Shown: positions 15,179 to 46,151 of the stretch, one piece after another
How the letters are laid out: every line of letters begins with the position of its first letter
Numbering within the stretch: the first letter of the stretch is position 1
Origin: Chrysoporthe austroafricana
Taxonomy: Eukaryota > Ascomycota > Sordariomycetes > Diaporthales > Cryphonectriaceae
Length of the DNA stretch: 64,000 nucleotides
NCBI GenBank assembly: GCA_001051155.2
Contig: JYIP02000005.1
Span: 4,898,001 to 4,962,000, forward strand
Direction of reading: 5' to 3'
Program-made: the position numbers and the translations under genes
Notes under the pieces: generated by a model
Database searches by the model: none
Told to the model about the DNA's origin: nothing
Seen by the model: only the letters and a program-made list of their open reading frames with translations

Positions 15179-15703
15179 TTAACTAGAAAAATAATTAATA
15201 TCCGAAAAACTAGCTGCGCTTTCGAATTCAATTTCCGGAACAGTAACGGATTAATCCATTTCGGAACCAAACTGCTATAAGGCAGCCTCAAAATCGAAAC
15301 TTTCAAAGAAAGGACTTTCGGGAACGAAATTTTCCATAATGCGATACTCGGCTTCGGCCCTATAACGCTCTTCCTTAGCTTTTGCAGCTTCCAACCTCTC
15401 TAATTCCTCGATAATATCCAACTTACGACAAACCGCATACGCTATCTTTTCGGCCTATAGGCAATGCTATTTCCTGAAACGCAAGATTTTGGCATTCGCT
15501 AGCATCGCTTCCCTTTCGGCCATTTCCAATTCAGTTTCGACTTGGGAATGCTATCTTGCGATTTTTTGCATCTGTATTAGGAAGAGCCCGGCTATATTGC
15601 AATTCTCCCGTTTATTACGAATGCATTTTACGTATCGAAAAAAGTCTTTTTTAGAAGCAATACAGAAAAGATTGCAATCGATACAGGAAAAATAAGCGGG
15701 CAT
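15179..15703 (-). pseudogene. Antisense frame of element A: Cys-cluster plus coiled-coil protein
   Basis: The frame runs opposite to gag-pol, from ATG 15703 to TAA 15179 (175 codons), between the chromodomain and the right LTR. Six positions near the N-terminus read Y-x2-C-x6-C-x9-Y-x2-C-x7-C, i.e. Cys or Tyr at a Zn2Cys6-like spacing. A long charged helix follows ('VETELEMAEREAM', 'IIEELERLEAAKAKEERY') and then 'VPESPF'. All in-frame stops are TAG or TAA where other copies have Gln or Trp. The same frame occurs in B, C, D and H. Function unknown; a DNA-binding role is inferred only from the cysteine spacing. Confidence 0.7.
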
Positions 15704-15878
15704 TTCCGAATAATAAGAAAAAACTAAGAGGCAAAAGGCATTGCTCTGGATAGTTTTCTTATAATAAGACTTTTCGACCCTGCTTGATATCCTAATTAGG
15801 AAAATACGATAAATGATAAGAAAGACTAGGAAGCTTACAAAAATTAATAAGGATATTAATTAATAAGATAGGAAATAA

Positions 15879-16313
15879 TATTATAAATTAATACGCAAAC
15901 CCAAAATACAATATTAAAATTATAACTCTATTTAATAAAAAGAAATATAAAGCTAATTATAAACCCAATTACGTACTTATATAAGCCAGGGTTAAGGAAA
16001 AGGACTAATAGGATCGCTATTGGTCCTATCGATATAATTATGGATTAATGCATTCGGTATCGATTCTATCGGTCCAAAATTAAAGAGCTAGATATATAAG
16101 AATTAAATATCCGCTAAATAAATAGCAATAGCTTTTCAGTTATCAATCTAAATATTAATTGGACCTTATTATTAATAATTACTAAGACTTATAAATATTG
16201 CAATATTCAGTATTTGTATTCTGATATTCAAAGCTTGTATTTAGCACTGCTTTTGCTAGCATAAACCCCTTAACTTTACGGCATATCTCGGGATTGCTGC
16301 AGCGTTTATAACA
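15879..16313 (+). repeat. Right LTR of element A
   Basis: 435 bp, the same length as the left copy but more heavily RIP-mutated; the inverted units of the cassette and the TATATAAG box are still visible. Confidence 0.88.
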
Positions 16314-16318
16314 TTTAA

Positions 16319-19300
16319 AATAGTTCTTATAGAAGTTTAAAAGACGGAAGCAACTCGCTATAGGAAAAAAAGGCTTTATTTATAACGCGGCTATAAATAG
16401 CAGCGATTCCGATTATTTAAGCAACCCTTTGGACGTTAAGGAAAAGAACTTAAAAAAGTTCCTTCTAGACTATTATATTGAATAACGATAGGATGCAATA
16501 ATAGAAGAAGAATTTGGTATTTAGAAAATGGAAATACCCAGTATTGCATTTGAAGAAATAGCGCTATAAGATAAATAGCCGGATAACTTACTAACTTTTA
16601 CGCCCGAAAAAGAATTCAATACGAAAACGGAAAAGATAGTTACTAAGCATATAAAATAGGAACGATTAAAGCAAAATAGCTGGAAATCTAAGCATACGAA
16701 AATTAAGTACTTTATTTACGGGCTTATATTATAAGAACTCTTCTAAAGCATCCCGTTTCAAATAGCAAATATAAACCTTAAGAAAATAAAAGGATTAATT
16801 ACTCTTACCCTCGTTATTATAAACTTATTTGGATATGCTATATTTATTATAACTGCTAGATATATTTTAACGAGAAAGTTAAATATAATTGGTTTTTAAT
16901 TAAAGAATAAGACTAATTAATTTAACCTATTATAGAATTCCGAAAAAAGTATAGAAAAGTTTTGTATATTAAGAATAATAATGCTTATATTAAACTACCC
17001 GATAATTGCTTATAAAAGTGCATATAAAGGAAAACGATATAGGAATAATGCTACGTTATAATATATTCTATTTATATGCAAGATAAAGCTAAAGAATAAT
17101 ATCGATTGCAAAAAGCTGAGAAGGCAAAGCAATATAGCCAGAGCCAAGTACGAAAGCTAGTAAAATAAATAACGAGAAAAGCTTAGAATACTCTAAAAAG
17201 GAAAGATCGCTTATAACGGGATAATAGCCGATCAGGATTACGAAATCCTTATACGCAATTACGAAAGGAAACGAAAAATATATTATATTAAACGCATATA
17301 TTAATAGGTAACGATATAGCGCATTTTTGGATAATAGCGTATAAAGAAATTTTATTTTGCCAGAAATTATTAATAGAGAATAAATTCTTTAAATACAAAA
17401 AAAAAATCCTTACAAATTCAATATTATAAAAAGAAAAGCGGTTATATATAACTTTAGTATAATCGATATAGAAACTAATTACTTATTTATTTCGATTTAA
17501 AGCTTTATAATAAATATTACTTTCGATATTATAAATACGGCATAATACGAATTAATTTTAAAAATACTTTAATTTAAGAAATATAATTTTTGAATCGATT
17601 AAATTACTAGCTAAATTTTATAAGAATAAGCTATATTTACTGAAAAAGTTGCAATTAATGGAAAAAGGAAAGTCTTAATTATTAAAAATAATATCGGAAG
17701 CATATATTCAAATAAGCTTAAATATACCTTTAAAGCAAATAGATTTGCTGAGAAATAAGGAAAGATTACGAATATTTCGAACTTATAAATATAAATTAAG
17801 GACGAATTAAGAATTTAAGCGATTAATAATTAACGGAAGATTAATCTAATATAAAGCATTATAAAGCTATATAGATTATGGAATTATAAGGAAATATCGC
17901 TTCCAAAACAATATATATAAAGAGATTACGGGTAAAAATTCGGGCCAATACGCGATAAATACCCGAAATTATTAGAAATTAAGCTCTAGAAATAATAATA
18001 GGAAACGAGCGAAACAAAATATGCTTAATAGTATTTCTTATTCTTCCAAATCTTAAAAGATAAAAAAAAACTATTACCAGAATTCAAAAACATATTCAAA
18101 GAATATTATAAATTCAAGAAATTATAGCAAAAGAAATTCAATACCGGCTTATTAGAATATAGCCTTTTTAATTATAAAATTCTATTAAAAGAAAAGACAA
18201 AACCGCAAAATTACTTTATTTATAAGTTCAATTAAGCAAAGCTCGAAATATTTAAGGAATATATCGATAAAAATCTAAAGAAAGGCTATATACGAAAATT
18301 ACGATTATTCGCAAAATATTTAATTCTATTTATACTTAAGAAGAATAGCAAGTTACGACTTTATATAAACTATTGGCAGCTTAATAATATTATAATCAAA
18401 AATCGCTATTCTTTACTTTTGATAGGAGAAATGCGAGATCGATTGGTTAGAACAAATTAGTTTATTATATTCGATTTCAAAAAAGGATATTATTATATCC
18501 GGATTAAAGAAGATAATATATAGAAGATAGCATTTAGGACTTATTACGGATATTTCGAGTATATAATCTTACTTTTCGGACTAATTAATGCATTTGCGTC
18601 TTTCCAAGAAATGATTAACGATATTTTCCGCAAATATTTAGATATTATTATTATCGTTTATCTTAATAATATCTTTATTTATTTAAGAGATTTCGAATTA
18701 TACAAATAGTATATATAATAAGTATTCCAAATTTTGCAAAATAATAAGTTTTTAATCGAATTAAGCAAATATTATTTCTATTAGCAAAAAGTTAATTATT
18801 TCGGTTATACGATAGAATTAAGTAAAATTAATATATGGAAAGATAAAATCCAAATAATAAAGGAATAGCTTATATTAAAAAAAACTAAAGAAATTAAAGT
18901 ATTTTTTAGCTATATTAACTTTTATCGATAATTCATTCGAAATTATAGCAAAATCGCATGCTTTCTTACGGATTTTACGAAAAAAGATCGGAAGTTTAAA
19001 TAGATATAAAAAGCTTAAGAAGCATTTAACGAAATCAAAAAACGAATTATATTAGAACTTATATTCTGCAAGGCAAACCCAAATAAGCTATTTGAAATCG
19101 AAACTAATATATCAGATTATATATTCGGAAGATAATTCGGTTAACGAGATAATTAGGAATGCTTTAAAATTATAAGCAATTTCTTAAAGAAATTAAATAG
19201 CTTAGAATTCAATTATAGTATTCCGGATAAAGAATTAATAGCAATTGTAAAAGCATTTAAAGAATAATAGTATTATTTAATCGGAACCAAATACTAGATT

Positions 19301-20870
19301 ATAATGCATTCCGATTATAAGAACTTAATAATATTTATAATAACAAAAATCTTGAATAGATAATAAGTTAGATAGGCGGAATTCTTTTATAATTTGATTT
19401 AAAGATTATCTATTGCAAAAGATCCGAAAATAGCAAAACAAATATATTTAGCAAGCGATCAGATTACTAAAATATAGAACTCAAAGAGTTCTAGAATATC
19501 TTCCGATAAGATAAAGACGGCAATCTTATAAATAAAACTAGAGAATTCAATACGATTATCAAAATCTTTAATAATAAGAAAAAGCCAGAAAATATAATTA
19601 CGAAAGAACAAAATAAATATATCAGAAATATATACAATGCACTTATATATAGCTATTAAGGAATTAGGGCTATATATAAAAGAATTAAGAGATATTGGAA
19701 CTTTCCGGGATTAAGGAAAAGAATCGAGATAATCTTACGAAAATATAATAGCTATAGGAAAAATAAGATCGAATATTATAAGCCTTATAAATTGCTCTAA
19801 CCGCTTTCAGTTCCGAAAGCAATTTGGCAATCTATTAACTAAGATTTTATTATTAAGCTACTCTTTTTACAAAAACCTTTAACTAAAATGCAATACGATA
19901 ATATTTTAATAATAGTTTGCAAATTAAGCAAGTACGCTTATTTCTTATTATATAAAGAAAGCAATATAATAGAAAATTTCGTATATATATTCTTTAGAAT
20001 AATTATAGCTAATTACGGTATGCTTAAAGAAATTATTTCTGATAGAAATAGGAAATTTGTATTAAATTTCTGGACTTTATTTATAAAGCTATTCGGAATA
20101 TAATAAAAGATATTTACGATATTTTATTCGCAAACGGATAAACAAACGGAACGAATAAATTAAATTATTAAATAATATTTATAATATTATATAAATTATA
20201 AATAAGATAATTGGGTTAACTTGCTATTATTAATATAGTTCGTATATAATAGCGCAAATATAAGTATAACGAAAAAATTACTATTTTATACGCTTTACGG
20301 CTATAACCTGATAGCTTATTATAATAAATTACTAAGAGCAATTGCAAAAGCAGCAGAAAAACGAATCCGGAAAATTAAGAAAATCCAAAAAGAATTTCAA
20401 GAAAAACTGAAATTTGTACAAGAAAAAATAACGAAATATACTAATTCCAAAAGAATTAAAAGACCAATTTTATAAGAAAGGGATAAAGTTTACTTTATTC
20501 GACAAAAAGAATATATTAGAACGATAAGACCTTCTTATTTGCTAGATTATAAAAAACTTGGATTATTCAAGATTCTAAAGAGAATTTCAGATATTAATTT
20601 CGAATTAATACTGCTCTATAGAATAAGAATTTACCCAATATTCTATATCTTATTTCTCGAACTAGCCCTGAAAGTAATTAAAACGAACGAATCGGTATAA
20701 GTTAAAATTAACGAACCGGAATACGAAATCGAACGAATCCTTAAATATCGAAAGCTAATCAAGCGCAGAAAATACCTAATCAAATGGAAAAGATACTATT
20801 CAAACGAGAACAGTTAAAAACTAATTAGCAACTTAAATAATGCATAATAAGCGCTCGAAAAATACTGGAA
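16319..20870 (+). pseudogene. pol of element B, continued after element A
   Basis: It resumes the frame broken at 8961. RT lies at about 18400-18720 with the active-site box as 'VYLNNIFIY' (Asp to Asn). The integrase core is near 19620-20340, where 19888-20103 is open ('ILIIVCKLSKYAYF', 'IISDRNRKFVLNFW'). The chromodomain is at about 20700-20830 ('PEYEIERILKYRKLIK', 'YLIKWKRYYSN'). There are many TAA/TAG codons. Confidence 0.82.
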
Positions 20871-20885
20871 AAGGCAACTAATTAG

Positions 20886-21386
20886 CTAGCCGGAAAAATA
20901 ATTAGAAAAACTTAATATAATTTCGTACTTTGCGATCAAATCAATAGCGAACTAGTCGATATCAGAATCAAATTACTGTAAAGCAGCATTCAAATCAAAA
21001 CTTTCGGGAAAAAGATTTTCAGGAATTAAATCTTCCGAAACGCAATGCTCGGCCTTAGCCTTGCAACGCTCTTCCTCAACCTTTTCCGCTTCCAATTATT
21101 CCAATTCCTTAATATTATCTATTTCTCAGCAAACGGCTCGTATTATCTTTTCATATTATATACGCTTCTAATAACGCAAGCAAAGTACTTTCTCTTCCGT
21201 AGCTTCCAACTTATTTTTCAACCTCTAATATTAATAAGCTATCTTGTAAAGCTTATCCGGAATAACCCTTAAAATATCGTATCGGAAACGATTAAGCCGC
21301 ATATATTCCGAATAACGTAAGGAATTATTTTCCGAAACCTGATAATTAAAAATATTACGACCTTTGCAAAACGAATAGGAAGGCAT
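20886..21386 (-). pseudogene. Antisense frame of element B: Cys-cluster plus coiled-coil protein
   Basis: 167 codons from ATG 21386 ('MPSYSFCKG') to TAG 20886, opposite to gag-pol, just before the right LTR. The six cluster positions read Y,C,Y,Y,Y,Y at spacing x2, x7, x9, x2, x7. The rest is helical and charged ('KELEQLEAEKVEEERCKAKAE') and ends with a segment parallel to the other copies ('PESFDLNAAL'). In-frame stops are TAG/TAA only. The length matches the copy in H exactly (501 nt). Confidence 0.7.
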
Positions 21387-21571
21387 TTGCATAGCGCGCT
21401 ACAGAATTGCTTCCAGGAAAGAGTTGCAATACTAAGTTTTAATTAAGCGAATAAAACGGGTTTTCTATATCCTGCCCGTTATCCCGATTAAGAAAGAAAG
21501 ATTATAAAATGAGCGTTAATAAAAACCTTACAGGAAATTATTAAAAACGATAATTAATAAAAAGGAGATAA

Positions 21572-21611
21572 TATTATAACTTAATTAAAAGACTAGGGCA
21601 TATAATAAGAT
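21572..21611 (+). repeat. Right LTR of element B, first 40 bp
   Basis: TATTATAACTTAATTAAAAG, then the segment ending AAGAT, which corresponds to GGGAC in the left LTR. Element C inserted here, and AAGAT/AAAAT is its target duplication. Confidence 0.85.
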
Positions 21612-22067
21612 TGTTATAAACGCTGCAATAATCTTAGGATAAACTGTAAAGTTAAAGGGTTTATACTAGCAAAGACGGTACCAAATATAGCCTGAATACT
21701 AGGAAGGTATTTGATAAAAGTTTACAATGTTTATAAGCCAATAAGGCTATTACTGGGATGCGATATAAGGTCCAAGTAATACTTAAATTTACGATTGAAA
21801 AACTATAGTAATTTGTTTAGTAATTATCCTATTCTTATATACTTAGTTCTTTAGTTCTATATTGCTAAATCTATTAGATCTAGGATAAATCTTTAGATCC
21901 GGGATCGGGTAATTTTATAGCAAATCCTTAAATCCTCCCTATTATATAGCTTTAACCCTAGCTTACGTAAGTAATGGGAGGGGCTTTATAAGTAAGGCTA
22001 TAGATAAGATACTTGCTTATTCCCATTTTTGCTTTAGCATGCTTTATTTCCTTATTAGGTTATAATA
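21612..22067 (-). repeat. 3' LTR of element C
   Basis: 456 bp, starting TGTTATAAACGCTGCAATAA on the plus strand and ending GGTTATAATA. It includes TTACGTAA next to AACCCTA, and a cassette of GATCT/AGATC units. Confidence 0.88.
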
Positions 22068-22259
22068 TTATCCCTTTTCCAATCGGTTATTATCTTTAAT
22101 AATTCTTATAAGTAGTTTTAATTCGTTTGCATAGCTTGTTATGCTTTCTTAAACAGAATAAATAATAGGATTTCGAAACTCAAATTTTCCAATCTTTATT
22201 TTGATAAGCGCAAATAGCGTAATTCTTTAATTTTCCGGATTATTTATTACGCTATTATA

Positions 22260-22763
22260 ATATATCTTTATTCTTATTGCAATTGCTTGGGTTTGGAAAC
22301 TTGCGCGGTATCCAAACAGGATTTATCTTGCTGCTTTAAGTGCATTCAATATAACCAGGCAAGCTGCGATATCTTAAAGCTAATCAATATTGCGGAACTC
22401 TTTTTCGTATTCAACCAGTTTTAGAAGCTGGAAGATAAGATTGAAAGTTTAGAAAATAAGTTAATACGGTTACGGAAACAGAAACGGATATAGCGAGAGC
22501 GAATGGCTCGGGCATTTTGCTATAGCTTATCCAATCTCGAGGAGTTGGAAAAACTAGAAGCTGAAAAGGCGGCGGAAGAGAGTTGCAAGGCCGAAGCCGA
22601 ATGTCGTGCTGCGGAAATTTTGGTTCCTGAAAGTCTTTTTCCTGAAAGTTTCGATCTGGATACGGTCCTATAACAATTTGGTCCGGATATTAACTAGGCT
22701 AGTATTGATTTGATTATAGAATCCGAAATTGCTTTAAGTCTTTCTAGTTTTTCTTCTGGCTAG
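22260..22763 (+). pseudogene. Antisense frame of element C: best-preserved Cys cluster
   Basis: 168 codons opposite to gag-pol. The first codon is ATA, probably a mutated ATG; the stop is TAG 22761. The cluster is Y-x2-C-x7-C-x9-C-x2-C-x7-C, so five of six cysteines survive ('CFKCIQYNQASC'). Two heptad-rich helices follow ('KLEDKIESLENKLIRLRKQK' and 'LSNLEELEKLEAEKAAEE') and a conserved 'LVPESLFPESFDLDTVL' tail. Only three or four in-frame stops remain. Confidence 0.72.
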
Positions 22764-22779
22764 CGGGTTGGTTACTTTT

Positions 22780-26093: not shown

Positions 26094-26234
26094 TGTTATG
26101 AACTAGCGAACGGTTCAGGTTATAAGAACAGGCCGGATCAGTAGATCCAGGACCAACGTAGCACGGACCCAACATCCGACACAAGGAACCCACTTATCCA
26201 AGGACGCTTGGCCACCCCGGATTACATAATCAAA

Positions 26235-26573: not shown

Positions 26574-28177
26574 ATTAATTCGTACTATGCTATATTTATA
26601 ATATTGAAAGTAGTTTTTATTATAAGGCTTTAAATTGAGATAAGTAAGTAATTAGTTTCCATATCGATTATATTAAAGTTATATATAACCGCTTTTCCTT
26701 TTATAATATTAAGTCTATAAGGATTTTTTTTCTATATTTAAGGGATTCGTTCTCTATTAACGATTTCTAGCAAGATGAAATTTCCTTATGCGCTGCTATC
26801 CAAAAATGCGCTATATTTCTGCCTATTAATATATGCGTTTAATATAATATATTTCTCGTTTTCTTTTATAGCTGCGTATAAGGATTTCGTAATCCTAATC
26901 GGCTATTATCTCATTATAAGCGATTCTTCTTTTTTGGGGTATTCTGAGCTTTTCTTATTGCTTGCCTTGCTAATTTTCTTGCTTAGCTTTGGCTATATTG
27001 CTTTGCTTTTTCAGCTTTTTGCAGCCAGTGCTATTCTCTAGCTTTATTTTATATATAAATGGAATAAGCTATAATAAAGTATTAATCCTACTTTATTTTT
27101 CTTTAAATATATTTCCAAAGGCAATTATCCGGTAGTCCGATATATACGTTACTATATTCAATATACAAAACTTTCCTATATTTCCTTTAGGATTCGGTAA
27201 TAAATTGGATTAATTGGTCCTATTCTCTGATTGGAAACTAATTATATTTGACTTTCTTGCTAAAATATATCTGGCAATTATAGTAAATATAATATATTCA
27301 GGCAAGTTCGTAATAATAAGGGTATAAGTAACTGATTCGCGTATTTTCTTGAAGTTTGCATTTGCTATTCTGGAATGGGATGCTTTGGAAGAGTTCCTAT
27401 AATATAAACCTATAGATAAGGTATTCCATTTTCGTATATTTTGATATCCAGTCGTTATATTCTTATTATGGTTGCTCTGTTTTTGGGATGCTGTATTCCT
27501 CTAATTCTTTTGCGAGTATAGGGATTGGGAAGTTGTCTGGTTATCGGTTTTGCAATGCTATAATGCTCGGCATAGGTGCTATTATATTCTGGGTTCCGAG
27601 TTCTTTTTCTATTATTGCTTCCTATTGTTTTTCAAGATAATATTCCAGGGGGAACTTTCTTAAATCCTTTTCCCTAATATCGAAAGGGTTGCTTAAGCAG
27701 TCGGAATCGCTGCTATTTATAGCCGCGTTATAAATAGGGCCTTTTTTTCTTATAGCAAGTTGCTTTTATCCTTTAAACTTGCATAGAAACTATCCTGAAC
27801 TTTCTTTTGCCAAGAAGTGCAATAAATAATAGTTTTAATAATAAGCTATTCAGCTTATATTATTATAATTAAGGTCCGCTACTTATTCCGATAGGATATT
27901 ATTATCTAACTAATTGAGTTCCTATTATTAAGCAATATTAACTTATTTTTCTGGGACTAATTTCCATTCTCGTTTCTTTTTTTCCTAATAATAGCTATAT
28001 GCAATATAGCTTTTCTTATTACAATTGTAACAAATAACCCCTTTGCATTATTCTCATATAAAAGTATTTAGTTTTATAGGTTTAATATATATTATGCTTG
28101 AATAAGCTATGCTATTTCGAGTTTTCTGCTAGAATTTGCATTTTCCCGAATTAAATTAGTATTTCGGAATGCTATTA
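26574..28177 (-). pseudogene. Element C: N-terminal pol and C-terminal gag
   Basis: Continuation of C after solo LTR E, minus strand. The protease/linker region of pol runs to about 27780. The gag zinc knuckle follows near 28018-28045, and element D then interrupts gag at 28177. RIP stops are frequent. A plus-strand open stretch at 26775-27041 lies in this region and is considered a chance hydrophobic frame. Confidence 0.7.
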
Positions 28178-28599
28178 TATTATAACCCAGTAAGGGAATA
28201 AAGCATGCAAAGGAAAAAAGATAAGCTCTCTATTTGCAGCCCTAACTACAATACCCTTCCTATAGCTTAAGTAAGCCAGGGTTAGGGTAAGCAGGATTTG
28301 AGGATTTGCGCTAAAGCTACTAGATCTAGGATTTAGGGATTTGCTATAAATCCGGCAAACCCAGTACTGAAAAGCTGGATATATAAGAATAGGATATCTA
28401 TTAGATAAATTTCTATAGCTTTTCAGTTATTAATTTAAGTATCAATCGGGCATTACTGTTAATAGCTATTAAGGCTTATAAATCCTATAATACTTAGTAA
28501 TTTCGTTTTTAAAATTCGAAACTATACTTAATACCGTTTTTGCTAGTATAAACTTTCCAATTTTACAGCTATTTCAGTACCGCTATAGCGTTTATAATA
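28178..28599 (+). repeat. Left LTR of element D
   Basis: 422 bp. AGGGTTAGGG is near 28278-28287, then a GGATTT/AAATCC cassette around TAGATCTAGG (28293-28353), then ACTGAAAAGCTGGATATATAAG. Confidence 0.88.
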
Positions 28600-29760
28600 T
28601 TTTGATAACTCTTGTTCAGGAACGGTTTAATATATCCTTTTCGAATAATATTAAGAATATAATAGCATTCCAGATTCCGTTTTCTTCTAGCAATTAAGCC
28701 CTTTAAGAAAAAACTTTAATTATCCTTATTAATAAGCAATTCTAGTAACAAAATATAGCCTTTTACTAATAGCTCGAAAAAATAAAAAGCGAAATTTTCC
28801 GCCTTAATGCTTTCTAGCAAGCCAAAGCTTTTAAGCTTAATAAGCTTAAGCCTTATAAGGGCATTAGAAGAAATTTCCAGGCTTTCTTAACCCAATTCAA
28901 AGCATATTTCAAGCATTACGGCGCTTAATTTAAAACTACTTACGACAAAATTGATTTCGCGGGAAATCGTTTCGAGGAAACAGCCTTTCAATAATAGAAA
29001 CTAACCTTCCGCGATTATTTGGACAATAATGAAAACTTCCGTTCTGAAAATATTAAGCGCATTTTCTAATGCTATGCTAATTTCGAATTAGCCCTTATTA
29101 AGACTTTTAGAAATCCGGATAAGAGGCGCATTGCAATATAGCAATTGGAAGCATTACGATAAACCGGCTTAATTACAAACTATATGGCTAAATTCCGGCA
29201 AATTACTGCTTATTTCGATTACGAGAATAAATTTCTTATAAATGCCTATTATATAAGACTTAAAGAAAAGGTTAAGGACAAGCTTTATAAGGAAAACTGA
29301 CCTGAAAAATTTAGTAAGTTTATTAATAAAGCAATCCGTATCGATAACTAATTTTATAAGCGGCGCTAGCAATAATAGAAAAATTATAATAGCAACTCGA
29401 AATACTAACCCAATTCGGGAAAGCATAAATTCTAGCAAAAAATCTAAAATAGCATAGCTTATTTAAGTATAATATATGCTAAACTTATAAAATTAAATAC
29501 TTTTATGCGAGAATAATATAAAGGGATTATTTGTTATAATTGCGGCAAAAAAGGCTATATTGCTTATAATTGTTATTAAGAAAAAAGAAAACGAAAATAA
29601 AAGCTAATCCTAGAAAAATAAGTTAATATTGCTTAATGATAAAAACCCAATTAGCTAAACAAAAATACTTTATTAGAGCAAGTAGCGAACTTTAATTATA
29701 GCAGTATAAGCTGGATAGCCTGCTATTAAAATTATTGCTTATTATATTTTTCGGCAAAAG
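28600..29760 (+). pseudogene. gag of element D
   Basis: Capsid relic ('FINKAIRIDN' near 29320-29350) followed by a zinc knuckle near 29525-29580 reading 'CYNCGKKGYIAYNCY', with RIP stops. The minus-strand frame at 29169-29438 is a shadow of this region. Confidence 0.8.
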
Positions 29761-32700
29761 AAAGTTTAAAATAATTCTTACGAAAACTTAAAGGATAAAA
29801 GCAATTCGCTATAAGAAAAAAAGGCTTATTTACGATACGGCTATAAATAGCAGTAATTCCGATTGTTCGAATAATCTTTTCGATATTAAGGAAAGAGATT
29901 TAAGAAAGTTCCTTTTCGGTTATTATTTTAAAAAATAATAAGAGGCAATAATAAAAGAAGAATTCGGAATTCAGAATATAATAATACTAGCATTAAGCAT
30001 TGCGATATTGCAAGACCGATAACCGGATAATTTACTAACCTTTATATTCGAAAAAAAATCGAAAGAGCATAATATCCTTAATACGAATTAGCTGCAATAA
30101 AGATATAGCGATTGAATAACCAAATATACGAAAATTGAATATTTTATTTACGGATTTACGCTATAAAAACTCTTTCAAAGCATCCCATTTCAGAATAGCG
30201 AATATAAGCTTCAGGAAAATATACGGATTAATTATTTATACTCTCGTTATTATAAACTTGCTTGGATATATTATATTTATTATAACTGCTAGATATATTT
30301 TAACGAGAAAGTTAAATATAATTGGTTTCTTATTAAGAAATAGGACTAGCTGATCTTACTTATTACGGAATCCCGAAAAAGATATAGAAAAGTCTTGCAT
30401 ATTAAGGATAATAATGCTTATATTGGGTTATCCGATAATTGCTTATAGAAATATATTTAAGGAAAAACGATATAGGAATAATATTATATTATAGTATATT
30501 TTATCTATATGCAAAATAAGGCTAAAGAATGGCATTAATTGCAAAAGGCCGAAAAGGCAAAATAATATAGCCAAAGCTAAATATAAAGGCTAGCAAAGCA
30601 AATAGCGAAAAAAGCTTAAAATATTCCAAAAAAGAAAAATCGCTTATAACGGAATAATAGCCGATTAGGACTATAAGATCCCTATACGCAATTACGAAAG
30701 AAAACGAGAAATATATTATATTAAACGCATATATTAATGGGCAGCGATATAGCATATTCTTAAATAGCGGTATATAAAGAAATTTTATCTTGCTAAAAAT
30801 TATTAATAAAGAATAGATTCCTTAAATGCGAAAGAAAAATCCTTATAAACTTAATATTGTAAAAGGAAAAGCGGTCGCATATAACTTTAATATAATCGAT
30901 ATGAAAACTAATTACTTATTTATTTCGATCCAAAGCTTTATAATAAATACTACTTTCGATATTACAAATATAGCATAATACGAATTAATCTTAAAAATAC
31001 TTTGGCTTAAAGAGTATAACTTTTATATCGATTGAATTACTAGCTAAATTTTATAAAAATAAGCCGTACTTACTGAAAAGGTTATAATTAACGGAAAAAG
31101 GAAAGACTTAATTATTAAGGATAGTATCGGGAATATGCATTCAAATAGATTTAAGTATACCCTTAAAGCAAAAGGACTTGCCAGAATAAAGGGAAAAGTT
31201 ACGGATATCCCGAACTTATAAATATAAGTTGGGAACGAATTAAGAATTCAAGCGATTAGGGATTAATAAAGGACTAATCTAGCGCAAAGCGTTATAAAGC
31301 TATATAAACTATAGAACTATAAGGAAATACCGTTTCCGAAGCAGCAAATATAGAAGGATTATAAGCAAAAGTTCGAGCTAATATATAATAAGTATCCGAA
31401 ACTACCGAAAGTTAAAATCCGATAACGATAAGAAGCAAGTAAAGCAAAATACGCTTAACAGTACCTTTTATTCTTCCAAATCTTAAAAAACGAAAAAGGA
31501 CCGTTATTAGAACTCAAGAATATACTAAAAGAATATTATAAGTTTAAAAAATTATAGCAAAAGAAATTTAATACTGATTTATTAAAATACGGCCCGTTTA
31601 ATTATAAAATTCTATTGAAAGAAAAGACGAAACTAAAGAATTACTTTATTTATAAGCTCAATTAAGCAAAATTCGAAATATTTAAAGAATATATTAACAA
31701 AAACTTAAAAAGAGATTATATATAGAAATTACGATTACTTGCAAGATATTCAATCCTATTCGTATTAAAGAAGAATAGTAAATTGCGATTTTATATAAAT
31801 TATAAGCAGCTTAATAATATTATAATAAAAAACTGCTATTTTTTATTTCTAATAAGAAAAATGCGAAATTAACTAATTAAAGCAAATTAGTTTATTACGT
31901 TCGATCTTAAAGAAAGATATTATTATATCCGAATTAAAGAAAATAATATTTGGAAAACGGCATTCAGGATTCGTTACGGATATTTTGAATACGTAATTTT
32001 ACTTTTTGGATTAATTAACGCGCTCGTATCTTTTCAAGAAATGATTAACGATATTTTTCGCGAATATTTGAATATTATTATTATCGTTTACTTTAATAAT
32101 ATTCTTATCTATTTAAAAGACTTTAAATCTTATAAATAGCACGTATAATAAGTATTCCAGATTTTGTAAGATAATAAATTCTTAATTAAATTAAGCAAAT
32201 ATTATTTCTATTAGCAAAAGGTTAATTATTTCGATTATACGATAGAATTAAGCAAGATTAGCATATAAAAAGATAAAATCTAAGCAATAAAAGAATAGCT
32301 TATACTAAAAAAGATAAAAGAAATTAAAGCATTTTTAAATTACGTTAATTTTTACTAATAATTTATTTGAGATTATAGCAAAATCGCATGCCTTTTTACA
32401 GACTTTACAAAAAAAAACTGAAAGTTCGAATAGATATAAAAAGCTTAAAAAGCATTTAATAAAATTAAAAAACGAGTAATATTAGAACTTATATTTTGCA
32501 AAGCAAACCCAAAAAAGCTATTTGAAATCGAAACTAATATATTAGATTACGTATTAAGAAAATAACTCGGCTAATAAGATAATCAAAAACGTTTCAGAAT
32601 CGTTAGCAATTTCTTAAAGAAACTAAACGGCCCTGAATTCAATTACGGTATTCCGGATAAAGAATTAATAGCAATTATAAAAGTATTCGAAAAATAGCAA

Positions 32701-34300
32701 TACTATTTAATCGGAATAAAATATTAGATCGTAATATATTCCGATTATAAGAACTTAATAATATTTATAATAACGAAAATTTTGAATAAATAGCAAATTA
32801 AATAGGCAGAGTTCTTTTTATAATTCGATTTAAAAATTATTTATTGCAAAAGATTAGAAAATAGCAAAGCAAATATATTTAGCAAATAATTAAATTATTA
32901 AGATATAAAGCTAAGAGAATTATAAAATATTTTTCGACAAAATAAAAATAGCAATTTTGTAAACGAAGCTAGAGAATTTAATATAATTATCAGAATTTCT
33001 AGTAATAAAAAAAACCAGAAAATATAATAATAAAAAAATAAAACGAATATATTAAGGATATATATAATGCATTTATATATAATTATTAAAGAATTAGGGC
33101 TATTTACGGAAGAATCAAAAAATACTAGAACTTTCCAAGCTTTAAAAAAAGAATCGAAAATATCTTACGAGAATACAATAGTTATAAGAAAAATAAAATT
33201 GAATATTATAAGCCTTATAAATTATTCTAATTATTTCCTATTCTAGAAGCGATTTAGCAATCCATTAGCTAGGATTTTATTACTAAACTATTTTTTTTAC
33301 AAGAACTTTTAACTAAAATGCAATACGATAGCATTTTAATAATAGTTTGCAAATTAAGCAAGTATGCTTATTTCTTTCCTTATAAAAAAAGCAGTATAGC
33401 GGAAGACCTCGCATATATATTTTTCAGAACGGTTATAGCCAATTATAGCATGTTTAAAGAAATTATTTCCGATAGAAATAGGAAATTTATATTCAATTTC
33501 TGGATTTTATTTATAAAGCTATTCGGAATATAATAAAAGATATTTATAGCATTCTATTTATAAATGGATAAATAAATAAAACGAATAAATTAAATTATCA
33601 AATAATACTTATAATATTATATAAATTACGAATAAAATAATTAGATTAATTTGCTGCTATTAATATAATTCGTATATAATAGCGCAAATACGAATATAAT
33701 AAAGAAATTATTATTTTATATATTTTATAGCTATAACCCGATAGCTTATTACGATAAATTATTAAAAGCAAATATAAAAATAACGGAAAAACGAATTAAA
33801 AGAATTAAAAAGGTTTAAAAAGAATTTCAGAAAAAATTAAAATTTATATAAAAAAGAATAATAAAATATACTAATTCTAAAAAGATTAAAAGACTAATTT
33901 TATAAAAAAAGGATAAAGTTTATTTAATTCAATAAAAAGAATATATTAAAATAATAAAACTTTTTTATTTATTAAATTATAAGAAACTGGGATTATTCAA
34001 AATTTTAAAGAAAATCTCAAATATTAATTACGAACTCGTATTACTCTATAGAATAAAAATCTACTTAACTTTTCATATTTTACTTTTCGAACTAATATTA
34101 AAATCGGTTAAAATAAACGAAATAATGCAAATTAATAATAATAAACCGGAATACGAAATCGGATAAATTTTCCAATACCGAAAAAAACCAGAAAACAGAA
34201 AATATCTAATCAAATAGAAAGAATACTATTCAAGCAAAAATAGTTAAAAACCAATTAGCAACCTCAATAATATATAACAAGCATTCAGAAATTACTAGAA
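29761..34300 (+). pseudogene. pol of element D
   Basis: RT near 31860-32160 with the catalytic box 'VYFNNILIYLKDF' (Asp to Asn). RNase H, then the integrase core with an open stretch at 33318-33533 ('ILIIVCKLSKYAYF', 'IISDRNRKFIFNFW'). The chromodomain is near 34140-34240 with several stops. RIP damage is heavier than in A. Confidence 0.8.
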
Positions 34301-34315
34301 AAAATAATTAATTAG

Positions 34316-34819
34316 CTAGCTAAAAGAAAGATTAAAAAGATTCGGCATAGTTTTATGCCTTATAATTAAATTAATAGCAGACTAGTCGATATTAGGACTA
34401 AACTGTCGCAAAACTGTATTCAAGTTAAAAATCTCAGGAAAAGGACTTTCAGGAACTAGGGTCTCTGGAATACGATACTTAGTTTCGGCTTTGCGATATT
34501 CCTCTTCCGCCTTTTCGGCTTCTAATTTCTCCAGCTTTTCGAGATTGGATAAGTTACGACAAAACGCCCTAGCCATTCGCTCCCGCTATATCTATTTCTA
34601 TTTCCGCAGCCGTATCAATTTATCTTCCAAACCTTTAATTTTATCTTCTAATCTCTGAAACTAGTTAAATGCAAATGAAAGTTCTATAGCATTAATCGGT
34701 TTTAAAATATTATAGCTTGCTTAATTATACTAAACGCATTTAAGATAACGGGACGAATTTTGCTTAAATACCGCGCAAGTTTTTAACTCTAAGCGATTAT
34801 AGTAAGAATAGAAACGTAT
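34316..34819 (-). pseudogene. Antisense frame of element D: Cys-cluster plus coiled-coil protein
   Basis: 168 codons opposite to gag-pol, ending at TAG 34316. The apparent first codon is ATA (34819). The cluster positions read Y,Y,C,Y,C,Y at the same spacing as in C. The coiled coil is clear ('RLEDKIKGLEDKLIRLRK', 'LEKLEKLEAEKAEEE'), followed by 'LVPESPFPE'. An open part without stops spans 34385-34576. Closest relative in the window is the frame in C. Confidence 0.7.
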
Positions 34820-35011
34820 AATAATAGCATAATGAATAATCCGAAAAATCAGAGAATTACGTTATTTGCATTTATTAGAATAAAGATTGGAAGATTTAAG
34901 TTTTGAGATTTTATTATTTATTCTATTTAAGAAAGCATAATAAGCTATACGAACGAACTAAGATTATTTATAAGAATTATTAAAGATAATAACTAATTGG
35001 AAAAAGGATAA

Positions 35012-35433
35012 TATTATAATTTAATAAGGGAATAAGGCATGCAAAGGAAAGAAAATAAGCTTTCTATTTGCAGCCTTAATTATAATACCCTTCTTATAGC
35101 TTAAGTAAGCTAAGATTAGAGTAAGCAGGATTTAAAGATTTATGCTAGAGCTATTAGATCCAGGATTTAAGGATCTGTTACAAATCCGGCAGATCTAGTA
35201 CTGAAAAGCTGGATATATAAAAATAGGATATTTACCAGATAAATTTCTATAGCTTTTCAGTTATCAATCTAAGTATTAATCGGGCATTACCGTTAATAGC
35301 TATTAAGGCTTATAAACTCTATAATATTCAGTAATCTTATTCTTAAGACTCGAAGCTATATTTGGTATTATTTTTGCTAGCATAAACCCTTTAACTTTAC
35401 AGCTATTTCGGTACTGCTATAGCGTTTATAATA
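35012..35433 (+). repeat. Right LTR of element D
   Basis: 422 bp, the same length as the left copy. It starts TATTATAATT and ends GTTTATAATA, followed by TATTA. Confidence 0.88.
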
Positions 35434-35438
35434 TATTA

Positions 35439-36226: not shown

Positions 36227-36682
36227 TATTATAAACGCTGCAGTAATCCTAAGATAAATTATAAAGCCAAGGGGTTTATGCTAGCAAAGACAGTGCTAAA
36301 TATAACCCGAATATTAAGAAGGTATTTAATAAAAGTTTATAATGCTTATAAGCCAATAAGGTTATTATTGAGATGCGATATAAGGTCCAAGTAATACTTA
36401 AATTTACGACTGAAAAACTATAATAATCTGTCTAGTAGTTATTCTATTCTTATATACCCAGTTCTTTAGTTCTGTATTGCTGGATCTGTTAGATCTGAAA
36501 TAGATTCTTAGATTCGGGATCGGGTAGTTCTATAGCAAATCCTTAAATCTTCCTTACTATATAGCCCTAACCCTAGCTTACGTAAGCAATGGGAAGGGCT
36601 TTATGAATGGGGCTATGGATAAAATGCTTGCTTGTCCCTATTTTTGCTTTAGCATGCCTTATTTCCTTGCTAGGTTATAATA
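36227..36682 (-). repeat. 5' LTR of element C
   Basis: 456 bp, less mutated than its partner. CCCTAACCC (36565-36573) sits next to TTACGTAA. Confidence 0.88.
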
Positions 36683-36687
36683 AAAAT

Positions 36688-37094: not shown

Positions 37095-37099
37095 TATTT

Positions 37100-40112: not shown

Positions 40113-41233
40113 TCAGAATTCCCGGACTGGGAATGGGGAGGAATAATACCAAGATCTTATCTCTCTCAGTACCGCAAAATATGCTGCTATAGCAGTCTGC
40201 ATAGTCTCCTTGGCTCGTATCATCTTTCTGCACAAGACACGTGGGTATTGGTACATGGCTTGCCAGGATAGGGTCTCCAAATCCATAAATGTTCGTATGA
40301 TATTGAGCTCCATCTATGGGGAAATATAAAGGGTACAGCTGATGCACGCATCAGCGATGTCGCTTTTGCACGTTTTTCCCCACACCATCTCCTGGAGCAG
40401 CTCGCCAAAGTATGCTTTGGTGCCCAAATCGATAAAGACGTCGGAAGTCCATGGGTATAGAGAGACATGTATGCTGCCCTGTTCAGCTGAAGAGGGATCT
40501 GTGTACCACCCTGCGTCGCGGCTGATGATGTCTTCAGGACTAACGTAACGCTTCAACAGACCTATCGCAAGCTCTACGAGCCCCTACAGCCTAGGCCCCG
40601 GCGAGAGCTGTTCCAGGTACTCTTTACACAACCTCAACAAGTGCTTAGACTACACCCTAGTGCCGCTGCTACCCTTCTCACTTTGATACGTCTGAAACGC
40701 CTTGTGAATACCGTCTTCGGTAGCCGCAACCATACGCATCACCTCCACGGCAAAGATATTATATGATAACGAGACATTATCAATCTTATAGGTCGAGGTG
40801 ACGTCTTCTGGTTTTGTAAGCACATACCACTTCTGCCTGGATACGGTAAGGGCAAAGAGCTCCTTAGAGTAATGGAAATAAGGTCACACGGGACAATCAG
40901 TCCTGCACACGAAAAATAGGAAGGAGTCATCATGACGCTATTTTCTTGCCTCCGATAGAAACCTGTTTGAATTTTGGAAGAAAGATCTGAGGTGACCTGC
41001 CTTGCATTAGGTCACCGTAGCAGAATTATGCCTATCTAGGAGTTTATTAGCGACTCACTAATGAACGGAACCCAGTATAAGTATTCCTGAGGGTCATCCG
41101 GGTATAGCCACGGAAAAAGTGTAAACCTGGTAAGTCTCTACACAAAGAGTGAAAGAAGGGAGAAAGCCAACAGGGTGAGCCGAGTATCATGAATCACTGT
41201 GCCTATCGTGTTTCGCGTGTACGACGATTCCAT
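40113..41233 (-). pseudogene. Cytochrome P450 relic, N-terminal half
   Basis: Microsomal fungal P450 remnant. ATG 41233 opens 'MESSYTRNTIGTVIHD', a hydrophobic anchor 'LTLLAFSLLSLFV' ending in TAG, then 'WLYPDDPQEYLYWVPFI'. The next readable block, at about 40480-40870, is 'YSKELFALTVSRQKWYVLTK', 'EDVTSTYK', 'SKHLLRLCKEYLEQLSPGPR', 'GTKAYFGELL', with two TAGs inside. A frameshift near 40316 leads to 'LETLSWQAMYQYPRVLCRKM' (40113-40313). These follow the order of P450 anchor, proline-rich hinge, B/C region and helices E-F. No heme-binding cysteine region is present, so it cannot be catalytic. Composition is ordinary, so the decay seems to be mainly point mutation and indels. The family resembles CYP7/8-like fungal enzymes, which I cannot fix further. 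Confidence 0.78.
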
Positions 41234-42566
41234 GGTCGTAGGTTGCCTAACGGAGGAAAAGTTCAAGTACACTGCGTGCGACCCTAAATGGCAGTGACTT
41301 TGATGAGAGTGTTTTGTAGTTTTCGAGTCTGCCTTGGACCATTTCACCCCTCACCCCCGGCCCCCGCACAGGCAGTAGATTGTGAGGCAAGCAGGCAAGG
41401 TATTCAAGTTTTCTCATACCTTTTGGCTGAGATATGGTTACAGTTGGCCCCGCAATTTAGTATTTCAATAGTACGTATTTTGGAAGACGCTGTCCATGCG
41501 GGTCCAGGTCCTTGCTTGTTTTGAGCTGGTGTGTTGCATTTTCCTGATTCAACAGAACGCCACCCTACCACTAAATCAAGATGATAAGTCTATTGACATC
41601 CACGATGAAACTGAATTTCGGTACATTTTGGACAACACTAGATGCTCAGGTACATATACATTAGATAGATTCCCACGAAATTGTCATGATTTTGGCCTCC
41701 ACTTCAAGCAGCGTTCTTAGCGACGGCAATCTCACAGTATTTCACAGACATATTCAGAAGATGCAGCAGCTCGTTAATTCTCACTATATAAGAAAGATAC
41801 ACACACAGAGCGAGCGAGAGGCATGTACGTTCGGCGCAAGTTGATCATCATTCCAGTGTATATATGCAATCCGAGGCTGACTGGCATAGAGATGTTATAG
41901 CACGCGGAATTGCGAGTGGCGAGTCCGAGGCATCAGACAAGTAGCCGCTGTCAAGTCTTTTTCAAGAGACAGCCCGATAGGTGGGGCTTATAATGCAATA
42001 GCATGGGTGGCTGCGTAGTCGAACTAACATATGAGCAATATTTTTTGAAAAAAGTTCCTTACAGCATTATTCGTGCCCATCAGCAATGCAACATAATTTC
42101 CCAACCCTCCAAGCACTAACATGGGCTGTAACATTTCTCAGGTACAATACTCCGTTATTCAACCAATCACTATATTACCTGTATGCTGTTACGAACTTAC
42201 TACTAGTATATAGTATCTGCGCATTGAACAAGTACCTTCATTACGCGAGATCAGCTTGAGGCTTACGTCTGCTGGGGGATCGTCGCATCTCTGCACATTG
42301 TCCTTTGTCCCCGCCACTTCCCGTGGGAGCGGTAAGATAGACACACGGGGCCATTTTACTGCAGATGAAATGTCTGCAAGTGGTGTTCGCTAAGCCGAGC
42401 TCAAGCCATAGTAAGAAAACCAAGCCAACATTTGTTTCCACCACTACTGCCAAATAGTCCAGCCTCCATTTACATTCGGGGGGAAAAAAGACGGGGGCCG
42501 GTAGGCGTTCTTTTCTCTTTTATATACGTTGCGAAGCATCGTTAAAATATCGATTTTCCGTATATA
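41234..42566. other. Spacer without recognised genes
   Basis: About 1.3 kb of ordinary composition. Short frames at 41288-41524, 41496-41720 and 42241-42453 show no family motif and no conserved context. The last bases TA (42565-42566) are the presumed target site of the second pogo element. Confidence 0.5.
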
Positions 42567-42960
42567 AGTCAGAAGGGGTAACTTCCGGCCGGCCGCACTT
42601 CCGACCACCCCTCGCCGGCTATACCACATATAGATAGATATAATATTCATCTTATCTTTTCTATTCAGCTATTACGATATAATTATCTTCAATACTAGAT
42701 AATTCGATCTCTCTCTCTCTATCAAAACTATCTATTTCTCGATTAATTGCATTTTGAGCCTTCTGTATAGCCTTAATATTTGCAACTTTCGAATTTGAGT
42801 TTATATTACCTTTCTTCTTTTTATTAAACCTCGAGCTTTCAGCTTATACTTTTAAAGCTTAATTTTCTTCCAGAGCTTTAATTAGGGCTGTATCCTTTTT
42901 TTCAAATGCTTTTTATATCTTTCTGAATAATATACGTTATATTAACATAATTAAAAGTTA
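42567..42960 (-). mobile_element. Second pogo/Fot-type transposon, 3' end
   Basis: It begins after TA with AGTCAGAAGGGGTAACTTCC and a GC-rich CGGCCGGCCG block, a terminal repeat different from that at 2956. On the minus strand, about 42640-42950 encodes a transposase C-terminus: 'AFEKKDTALIKALEEN', a basic patch 'FNKKKKGNINSNSKVANIKA', then an acidic end 'SSIEDNYIVIAE'. This charged coiled-coil tail with a KKKK-type patch is typical of Fot/pogo transposases. Gln/Trp codons read TAA/TAG. The rest of the element is not recognisable upstream. Confidence 0.7.
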
Positions 42961-43500
42961 ATATTAATTTCTTTATAGCTAATAGTATAAATCTTTAGCT
43001 TTTCGAAAGGTTTAATATATATGCGGCTAGATTAAAGATAATTTAGGAATAATATTAATTGCAATCGGTTATTCTGAGCCTGAAATCGATAGCTTTTTCT
43101 TTTATTATTAATTGTTCTCAAAAAGAAAAGGGTTTAAAAAGGGCTTAGCTAACTGGAAAAGCTAAAGACTTATTGCTTTCTATTTAAACGTTTTGCTTAA
43201 TCTCGTTCTTTTGTTTATTTGCACGCACGCTCAGGTTGTTCAAGCCTGCTGCCCTAAGTCTAGTGACTGGCATGTAATTCTGCATTAGCACATTCGTTAA
43301 TTTATAGGCAGCAGCTAGGTTTCCGGAAGCAGCGCGGTTTTGAAAATTATATATCTTTTAGCAGAATGTAATAAGCACTGCCGTACGATAGGTAGCAAGT
43401 ACTTCAAAAATTTATGCCAAGCAAAATAATATCAGGATATCCGTTTTCAATACAGAACAACTGAATACGGAATGCAAGTATTTACTAGCGGTAAACTATT
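42961..43500. other. AT-rich stretch, nothing recognised
   Basis: Partly RIP-like, partly normal composition (43220-43500). No LTR ends, no conserved frame. It may contain more of the pogo element in unrecognisable form. Confidence 0.45.
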
Positions 43501-43505
43501 ATCTG

Positions 43506-43716
43506 TATGAGATTACTATAGTAGTGGAAAAGGGACCAAGGCCTATCAGTGCACGGACCACTTAGCAGTCCGTGCACTATCGGCCCAGGGCGCCCAGCCC
43601 CTTTTCGTTCGGACAGAATGACGGCCTTCTTTCCAAATAGATAGAATAATACTAAGCAATACAATAATAGTAACCTTTACGATCCTTACGTACGTACGTA
43701 CAAAGCCTAGCCAATA
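43506..43716 (+). repeat. Left LTR of element G with hairpin
   Basis: 211 bp. It contains a perfect 11-bp stem, AGTGCACGGAC (43548-43558) and GTCCGTGCACT (43568-43578), with a 9-nt loop. A GGCCCAGGGCGCCCAGCCCC stretch follows, and TACG repeats lie near the 3' end. Confidence 0.88.
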
Positions 43717-45023
43717 CTGATTAGTAATTGCTAACGGGCGATTATAGACAGCTAGGTTGAAGAAACAAAACTTTCGAAAAAGTCCTTGGAACCGTTATTC
43801 AAAAAATGACAACTATATACTCTCGACGAAAGCCTCTGTGCTATATATCGACAAGCATTTCCTTAAACCTCCCTATAAAATACCAGACTCTCTGAACGAC
43901 TATTAAGAAAATCTACTTTGAAAACAGACCTCTTTAGCTTACGAAACTATACTTTCCAGAAGCAAGGCCAGATACGCGTCCCTTTATACGAACTAACCCG
44001 ATAAGCACCGTCCACCTATAAGAAATACCATTAACGAGCCTTACGATATCCGATAGTAAAGGCATCCGTAAGCTAGAAACCCTGATAGAAGGGATCCAGA
44101 TCTATTAGTCGATATAGGATAAAGTTAACCCGGATTTATAGATAACCTTAATTATAGCGGATTCGAGCGATAGATACCTTATTACGATAATAGCAAGAAT
44201 GACGCAATTCTATGCCGCTAAAAACTTTATTGATAATAACTTCTTTTATGCTTTTTGCGAAGATTTCGAAATATAGACCGAAAAGATATTTAACAGAATT
44301 CCTATAAGCTACTGCTATGCTTTCAAGGGAATCTTATGCTAGCAAAGCATCTTTATAAGACGAAATAACGGACCGATCGGGATTTAGCTAGCTAATTTTA
44401 TAAGGAAAGAAAAACCCCTTAAATAGAACTAGAAAGAAATAATAGCGATAACTTTCGTATTAGAATGCTAAGCATACTAAAGATAATAAGCCTTTGAATA
44501 AGGCTCGAAAGAGACGATTACGAACTTAAAAATACGATCGAAAATACGAACGTTACAAATATATTTAAAGACGCTAACGTAACGAATAAGCTTTCCTATA
44601 CCTTCGAATATATAGCAGGAAATAAATAAGACATTACTAGGCCCTTAATATTATAGCTCTTACCGAATGCTCTTTCTTTAAGCAATGCCGAACAAGCATT
44701 TCGAAACTTAGAAAATAAATATATTTACAAAAAGCTTCGAAAAAAAGAAAAGATATACAAGCAAGCCGTACGACTTGCTTAATAATAAAATAATGCTCTT
44801 TTTCAATATATGCCACTATATCGATATCTAGCCAGGCTAGTTCTATACCGTATTCTTTCGAATCCTTACCGGGCGAGTAAAGGAATATTATTTATATTTC
44901 ATAAATATAAATAAGGATTTCCGTATAGCATATTTCAAAATCAAAATCCATTTCGATACGGAAATAAACTATTATTATTATTATATAGATTGAACGATAA
45001 TAATATTTTTTAAAATACTCTAG
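43717..45023 (+). pseudogene. gag of element G, 5' part
   Basis: RIP-damaged frame(s) with no domain that I can name with confidence in this section. The assignment to gag rests on its position between the LTR and the readable capsid-like part that continues after element H at 52334. It ends at the element H insertion, with CTAG shared by both flanks. Confidence 0.5.
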
Positions 45024-45464
45024 TATTATAAACGCTGCAATAGTCCTAGAATAAATTATAATATTAAAGGGTTTATATTAGCAAAAGCAGTACTAAATAT
45101 AGCTTTAAATACCGGGAAATGTATTTAAACTAAAGGTTTATAATATTCATAAGCCAATATAGCTATGATTAAGATATAGGCAAGGTCCGGGTAATATTTA
45201 AATTTACGATTGAAAAGCTATAATAATTTATCTGATAAGTATCCTATTTTTATATATCCGGCTCTTCAGTTCTGGATTACTAGCTTATTAAATAATCCGG
45301 TAATCTTAGCTTACTGGATTACTTAATGATTTGGTAATCCTTATTTTATTTAACCCTAACCCTGGATTAGTACTATTCAAAGTTTCTTTGAGTTAAGAAA
45401 AGGATCGGGCGCTTAAGCGCTAGCTTCCTTTATTGCAACCTTAATTTCTTATTAAGTTATAATA
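45024..45464 (-). repeat. 3' LTR of element H
   Basis: 441 bp, with CCCTAACCC at 45354-45362 and a GGATTAC/GTAATCC cassette. More mutated than the other LTR of H. Confidence 0.88.
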
Positions 45465-45650
45465 TTATCCCTTTCCTATCAATTATTGTCTTTAATAATT
45501 TTCCGTAAGAACCTTTGCTTATAACTGCTTTATAATTTTTCTTTCCTAATCGGGATATCGGGCAGGGTATAAAAAATTCGTTTTGCTCGTTCGATTAAAA
45601 CCCAGCATTACAATTCTTTTCTGGAAGCGGTTTTGCAGCATGCTATATAA

Positions 45651-46151
45651 ATGCTTTCCTGCTTATTTTGCGAAAGTCGTAATATTCTTAGCTATTAGGT
45701 TTCGGAATGAAATTCTTTTTATTATTCGGAATATATACGGCTTAACCGTTCTCGATACGATATTCTGGAAATTATCCCGGATAAGCTTCGCAAGATAGCC
45801 TATTAATACTAGAAGCTAGAAAAGGAACTGGAAATTGCGGAAAAGAAGGTTTTTCGTTTGTATTGACAGAAACGTATATAATATAAGAAAATAATGCGGG
45901 CTATTTATCGGGGCATAAATAATATTGAGGAGTTAGAGCGGTTGGAAGCGGAAAAGGCTGAAAAGGAGCGTTATAAAGCCGAAACTGAATATCGCGTTTC
46001 GGAAATCCTGGTTCCCGAAAGTTTTCTTCCTGAAAATTTCGACTTGAATACGGTCTTGCAGCAATTTGGTTCCGATATTAACTGGGTTAGTATTAATTTG
46101 ACCGTAGAATCCGAAGCTGTTTCGGGTCTTTTTAGTCTTTTTTCTAGCTAG
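45651..46151 (+). pseudogene. Antisense frame of element H: Cys-cluster plus coiled-coil protein
   Basis: 167 codons from ATG 45651 to TAG 46149, opposite to gag-pol. The cluster reads C-x2-C-x7-Y-x9-Y-x2-Y-x7-Y. A charged helix follows ('KLEKELEIAEKK', 'INNIEELERLEAEKAEKER'), then 'LVPESFLPENFDLNTVLQQF'. The second half (45894-46148) is open without a stop, the longest intact part of this protein in the window. The first half has about six TAG/TAA/TGA codons at Gln/Trp positions. Confidence 0.74.

Follow-up and report, generated by a model that had tools for sequence, protein, structure and literature searches.

A brtn-like antisense gene of Ty3/gypsy retrotransposons in Chrysoporthe austroafricana whose cysteine-domain type co-varies with U3 repeat arrays

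A window of 64,000 nucleotides (nt) of the Chrysoporthe austroafricana genome (JYIP02000005.1, positions 4,898,001 to 4,962,000; part of contig C18 in a genome of 48 Mb and 22 contigs) holds five Ty3/gypsy retrotransposons, A, B, C, D and H, each with a frame on the strand opposite gag-pol. We found that these frames are decayed copies of a real protein gene under purifying selection rather than a shadow of another frame, and sequence comparison assigns all five to a single antisense gene that Ty3/gypsy elements carry and that is a homologue of Botrytis brtn. Across the genome, the motif of a repeat array in the U3 of the long terminal repeat (LTR) tracks the cysteine/coiled-coil type of the encoded protein rather than the main pol clades, with exceptions; this co-variation of gene type and U3 array appears to be new relative to the known brtn. 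Judging from sequence and predicted structure, we consider it probable that the protein is a Gal4-like dimer that regulates the U3 of the element encoding it, and that regulator and target array are inherited together.

An earlier note on this DNA, made from the letters alone, had placed antisense frames in A, B, C, D and H before the 3' LTR, and translations, domain orientation and alignment to element A agree with that placement. The frames of A, B and D were translated from the minus strand and those of C and H from the plus strand. In element A, the domains for gag, RNase H and Tf2-1-type SH3 are on the plus strand, and elements B, C, D and H align to A in matching orientation; all five frames are therefore antisense to gag-pol. 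They lie between pol and the 3' LTR in all five window elements, as in the genomic copy L071, and in these six copies the gene start is 89–91 nt from the LTR start. Also re-read in the translations were the six N-terminal positions (spacing x2, x6/7, x9, x2, x7), which are Cys or Tyr in 30 of 30 cells (14 Cys, 16 Tyr) with each position being Cys in at least one copy, and behind them the heptad-rich region and the VPES-type tail. The reported length of 167–175 codons needs revision: the frames exist, but none is open (at least four internal stops each), and the start lies 29–34 codons further upstream, as counted on the alignment, where several better-kept copies have an ATG plus a basic extension (MSGRVRKSK... 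in L041). The frames, with the extended start, and the LTRs are as follows.

15179..15790, minus strand: antisense gene frame of A; ATA at the start position, internal stops (15179–15703 in the earlier note)
20886..21482, minus strand: antisense gene frame of B; interrupted
22158..22763, plus strand: antisense gene frame of C; interrupted
34316..34921, minus strand: antisense gene frame of D; interrupted
45555..46151, plus strand: antisense gene frame of H; interrupted
8959..9399, plus strand: 5' LTR of A, 84% to the 3' LTR of A
15876..16316, plus strand: 3' LTR of A; start also read as 15879, purine-rich tract directly before it
28174..28603, plus strand: 5' LTR of D
35008..35437, plus strand: 3' LTR of D
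45024..45464, minus strand: 3' LTR of H, 89% to 51888–52328
51888..52328, minus strand: 5' LTR of H

The elements appear to be nested between 7389 and 36682: A (8959–16316) apparently lies inside B, and D (28174–35437) inside C, whose other LTR is probably 36229–36682 (86% to 21614–22067).

In a genome search, 150 of 419 candidates were scored and all 150 matched, some partially, so that there are at least 150 matches. We fetched 70 matched loci and aligned 73 copies, namely 68 of these loci and the five window copies, leaving out L001 (window copy C itself) and L063 (start cut off). The columns of this alignment that contain only Cys or Tyr are exactly six, the predicted ones; the alignment anchor favours Cys, Tyr or Phe at position 1 and Cys or Tyr at position 2, and leaves the other four unaffected. 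Given that repeat-induced point mutation (RIP) makes transitions, selection was measured on transversions only. A tree of the 73 copies carries 216, 149 and 383 transversion steps at codon positions 1, 2 and 3, respectively. The test for purifying selection with RIP masked, which the earlier note had proposed, gave an omega of 0.31 in the gene frame (0.28–0.33 over 30 random pairings), the lowest of the six frames (others 1.65, 1.69, 1.01, 0.48 and 2.92). The gene frame of the ten best-kept copies contains 28 stops, compared with 39, 144, 43, 58 and 76 in the other frames, and has the fewest stops or ties for the fewest in eight of the ten copies (exceptions L070 and L053). Among all 73 copies, 253 of the 368 gene-frame stops fall in columns in which, stops aside, Gln or Trp is the most frequent residue, a concentration that RIP predicts. 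In the gene region, 13 copies differ from L041 by 557 C>T and 480 G>A changes, by 459 transitions in the reverse direction and by 75 transversions. The G>A changes were commonest after T (0.326), where a change of TGC/TGT to TAC/TAT would fall, but the C>T changes lacked the classic CpA preference (CpT 0.348, CpG 0.314, CpA 0.227, CpC 0.150). This departure from classic RIP is a hint only, as the reference L041 is itself mutated.

A profile of 12 copies matched at least 105 proteins in many fungi, including Microdochium, Colletotrichum, Pyricularia, Fusarium, Cordyceps, Gaeumannomyces, Cytospora, Hirsutella, Apiospora, Cryphonectria, Monilinia and Botrytis. When eight distant relatives were used to build a second profile, it matched at least 76 proteins, overlapping the first set and adding Pseudogymnoascus and Monosporascus; each search scored only the roughly 8000 candidates with most words in common, so both counts are lower bounds. 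We aligned 87 of the 105 relatives (18 near-identical or short ones were left out), of which 84 span all six positions. Their 504 cells hold 478 Cys, 26 Tyr and no other residue, 74 of the 84 have six Cys, and in a set of 55 proteins chosen from both profile lists Cys fills 330 of 330 cells. The earlier idea of a transposon-borne protein with six ancestral cysteines and a coiled coil is supported, as is its maintenance by selection. One relative, P0096 from Botrytis (annotated 'Putative BRTN'), matched the profile of this genome's copies with an E-value of 4e-16 and has its six Cys in register. The additional antisense gene of Boty-like elements was named brtn by Zhao et al. 2011, as mentioned in PMC8365987, PMC7264820 and PMC4227169, and a BRTN match is recorded in PMC5987419. 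In Botrytis the gene is described as antisense and as placed behind pol and before the 3' LTR in a gypsy element with a chromodomain. With this homology, the antisense gene as such is already known, and the earlier suggestion that it might be undescribed is not supported. Among the titles and abstracts listed in searches of open-licence PMC, none described a zinc cluster or U3 arrays for a brtn-type gene.

The protein begins with a basic extension, continues with the six-cysteine domain and a long coiled coil, and ends in an acidic tail (median charge over the final 55 residues −6 and −7). In AlphaFold models, which also show the long coiled coil and the tail, the Cys domain is small and similar to GAL4/HAP1 (low Z); by this predicted fold it resembles a Gal4-type Zn2Cys6-like cluster. 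The order C-x2-C...C...C-x2-C...C is complete in 74 of the 84 relatives and in 55 of 55 proteins of the smaller set. The loop pattern of Zn2Cys6 clusters is x2, x6, x5–12, x2, x6–8; it fits 41 of these 55 proteins and 15 of the 74 six-Cys rows of the larger alignment, and in the remaining 14 and 59 rows the first loop is one or two residues longer. That loop is x6 only in A among the window copies, and mostly x7 in this genome. By eye, L061 and the relative P0035 have a 7-residue in-frame insertion at the start of the coiled coil, and P0048 has one of 14 residues, i.e., one or two heptads in some subfamilies. Different C-terminal tail versions occur on similar front parts (L053/L058/L060/L062 vs. 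L044/L054/L056; L065–L067), meaning that the gene is mosaic on its tail side too.

Between the LTR start and a TATATAA box, which we took as the sense promoter box, U3 contains short repeats in both orientations; in L041, for example, GGATAGCTAAGCTATCC occurs three times, the third with one edge change. Arrays were compared in 38 of the 73 copies (GC above 0.385). An excess of repeated 6-mers directly before TATATAA was found in 25 of 37 copies (one was too short), and in 1 of 38 for R-U5 and 0 of 38 for pol. Gene types were taken from automatic clusters, except that types Ia and III, which share one cluster, were split by hand after the arrays had been seen, and the single-copy types were set by hand as well; the same hand typing underlies the tree of type changes, the comparison of type II on two pol clades and the reading of further copies below. 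On this typing, the GATAGC array goes with type Ia genes in 13 of 14 copies (exception L032), the GTAAGC array with type II genes in 15 of 16 (one occurrence only in L050, none in L064) and with the single type IIb gene, the AGATCC or AAATCC array with type III genes in 5 of 5 (L031 also has two GTAAGC), and the TAGCGA array with the single type IV gene (L051). The CGATAG array is found with window copy A and with L032. In the window, the corresponding stretches are:

15983..16099, plus strand: U3 repeat array (CGATAG type) and TATATAA of A
21726..21842, plus strand: LTR stretch of B at the expected array place; heavily mutated, no clear array
21835..21951, minus strand: U3 repeats (GGATCT/AGATC type, by eye) and TATATAA of C
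35104..35220, plus strand: U3 repeats (AGATCC/AAATCC type, by eye) and TATATAA of D
45250..45366, minus strand: U3 repeat array (GGATTA/GATTAC with GTAAGC) and TATATAA of H

A telomere-like (GGGTTA)2 stands directly upstream of the U3 array, e.g., in L041 and in window H (45250–45366); in the 3' LTR stretch it is exact in 20 of 73 copies, and present in 37 of 73 if G>A is allowed.

Over the 38 copies, array distance was correlated (rho; Mantel tests with 199 shuffles) with distance in the Cys cluster (0.570), linker (0.557), coiled coil 2 (0.547) and N-extension (0.543), and less with distance in the tail (0.379), R-U5 (0.276) and pol (0.199). Adjusted mutual information between automatic clusters, made with one choice of cut-offs, was 0.73 for Cys type and array, 0.28 for pol and array, 0.26 for tail and array, and 0.01 for Cys type and pol, which means that the two main pol clades say almost nothing about protein type, whereas array and protein type are associated. 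Between L041 and L044, purine/pyrimidine identity is 93–100% in pol, 92–99% in the tail and 89–100% in R-U5, as against 71–80% from the coiled coil to the N-extension and about 70% in the array. In the sharpest comparison, type II copies on pol clade P2 are nearer to P1 type II than to Ia in coiled coil 2, linker, Cys domain, N-extension and array (8 of 8 each). In pol, tail, the first 70 nt of the LTR and R-U5 they are nearer to Ia, with 0 of 8 siding with type II in each case, and in the spacer 2 of 8 do so. Among 20 further copies, picked from unread matches, 19 have the array predicted from their protein type, although three of the 20 are ambiguous (L087, the mismatch, in which no TATA was found, and L081 and L093, concordant by a small margin). 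The link to variable U3 cassettes that the earlier note had suspected thus holds in so far as the array co-varies with protein type, and is limited by exceptions such as L032.

How might such a gene work? We suggest that the brtn-type protein binds zinc, dimerises and binds the short-repeat array just upstream of the sense TATATAA box, and that it would thereby regulate, most likely activate, LTR transcription. One U3 array could serve both directions, lying upstream of gag-pol in the 5' LTR and upstream of the antisense gene in the 3' LTR, which would explain the orientation of the gene and its closeness to the 3' LTR. The model would also explain why variation in U3 is matched by the front part of the gene and less so by tail, pol and R-U5. 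In reverse transcription, the U3 of each new copy comes from the 3' end, so the DNA-binding half and its target would be inherited together; such a pair could take the place of another lineage's pair and leave pol, tail and R-U5 unchanged. We put at just short of even the chance of the wider proposal, namely a self-contained regulator-operator module in which a Gal4-like activator, its U3 sites and a bidirectional LTR are swapped between pol lineages and form private circuits, possibly diversified into specificity types (GATAGC, GTAAGC, AGATCC, TAGCGA and CGATAG).

Several points weigh against a Gal4-like regulator coupled to its array. The Zn2Cys6-like cluster and coiled coil proposed earlier gained the fold likeness described above, but PF00172 stays below the Pfam gathering cut-off (3 of 10 intact relatives match, the best with 13.7 bits vs. 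21) and is not among 25 of the 26 families listed for 12 copies of this genome; in a profile search, a coiled-coil protein ranks above PUT3. All compared copies come from one genome and share descent, and on a finer, noisy pol tree Cys type and array each change 10 times and the joint label 11 times, where shuffled Cys types average 18.0 changes, meaning that Cys types do cluster on that tree. The remaining points also speak for an alternative that we regard as unlikely, in which gene and array are linked neighbours exchanged together and the protein acts elsewhere, e.g., in nuclear import, packaging or target choice. The gene start is about 200 nt from the array; array distance correlates as well with the spacer (0.572) and the first 70 nt of the LTR (0.570) as with the Cys domain; in the reverse test on P1 copies, LTR start (6 of 8) and spacer (8 of 8) also go with type II, so the discontinuity is visible from the P2 side only; and in L032 the array changed without the gene, contradicting strict coupling. 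Linkage fits less well with the P2 side, where array and DNA-binding half move together in 8 of 8 copies and the DNA in between in 0–2 of 8, with R-U5, which adjoins the array yet does not track, and with the predicted resemblance of the Cys domain to a DNA-binding family.

The same protein and target could also serve to repress or limit the element, through copy-number control or competition near TATATAA. The array does lie directly upstream of the sense TATATAA, and antisense retroelement products such as HBZ can act negatively; the acidic tail, however, suits activation better, and we think repression improbable. It is very improbable that the antisense transcript works as RNA (double-stranded RNA, silencing) with the protein irrelevant, a possibility raised for antisense open reading frames (ORFs) in general in the part of PMC7264820 available, given purifying selection on amino acids and Cys conserved across fungi. 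The chance that the frame is accidental or the shadow of a sense ORF is negligible: the frame that shares its register with the gene codons (omega 1.01) is open over 175 codons in L071, and the frame with omega 0.48 is on the gag-pol strand, but the latter is a mirror whose third positions face those of the gene, omega is lowest in the gene frame, stops summed over the ten best-kept copies are fewest there, though not in every copy, and open annotated relatives occur in many fungi.

Elsewhere in the window, a 1591-amino-acid ORF (58987–63762, minus strand) has five separate pectinesterase stretches, as an unusual multi-domain protein or a fused array, and adjoins a 666-amino-acid ORF (56976–58976, minus strand) with one further such stretch.

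A specific, testable function now suggests itself for the antisense gene, since protein type predicts U3 array type. If the Gal4-like regulator reading is true, retrotransposons encode private, promoter-specific regulators, antisense orientation gains a mechanistic reason, and the copies offer natural pairs of DNA-binding domain and array for studying how Zn2Cys6-like specificity evolves. HBZ of human T-cell leukaemia virus (HTLV) is an antisense regulator with a dimerising coil that is made from the 3' LTR and acts on the LTR; it may serve as an analogy in outline, an antisense regulator with a coil at the 3' LTR, although it is a basic leucine zipper protein and unrelated. The available text of PMC7264820 describes an antisense promoter in the HTLV 3' LTR, as well as antisense ORFs between pol and 3' LTR in plants and Botrytis, with no function assigned. 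The plant elements it covers (Grande gene23, RIRE2, Retand, PvRetro13) share, by description, position and orientation with the gene studied here; the review reports the Grande product to be nuclear, and the word zinc is absent from it. The brtn gene of Boty-like Ty3/gypsy elements of Botrytis cinerea (Zhao et al. 2011, Virology 417:248) shares antisense position, a homologous protein and six Cys, and differs in that this genome has several Cys types with type-specific U3 arrays. Finally, Gal4-type Zn2Cys6 factors (PF00172; GAL4, PUT3, HAP1, LAC9) have the same Cys order, coiled coil beside the cluster and acidic tail, and a fold that the predicted one resembles at low Z, whereas the protein described here scores below the Pfam cut-off, has a mostly x7 first loop in this genome, is accompanied by U3 repeats that are not CGG, and is encoded by a retrotransposon.
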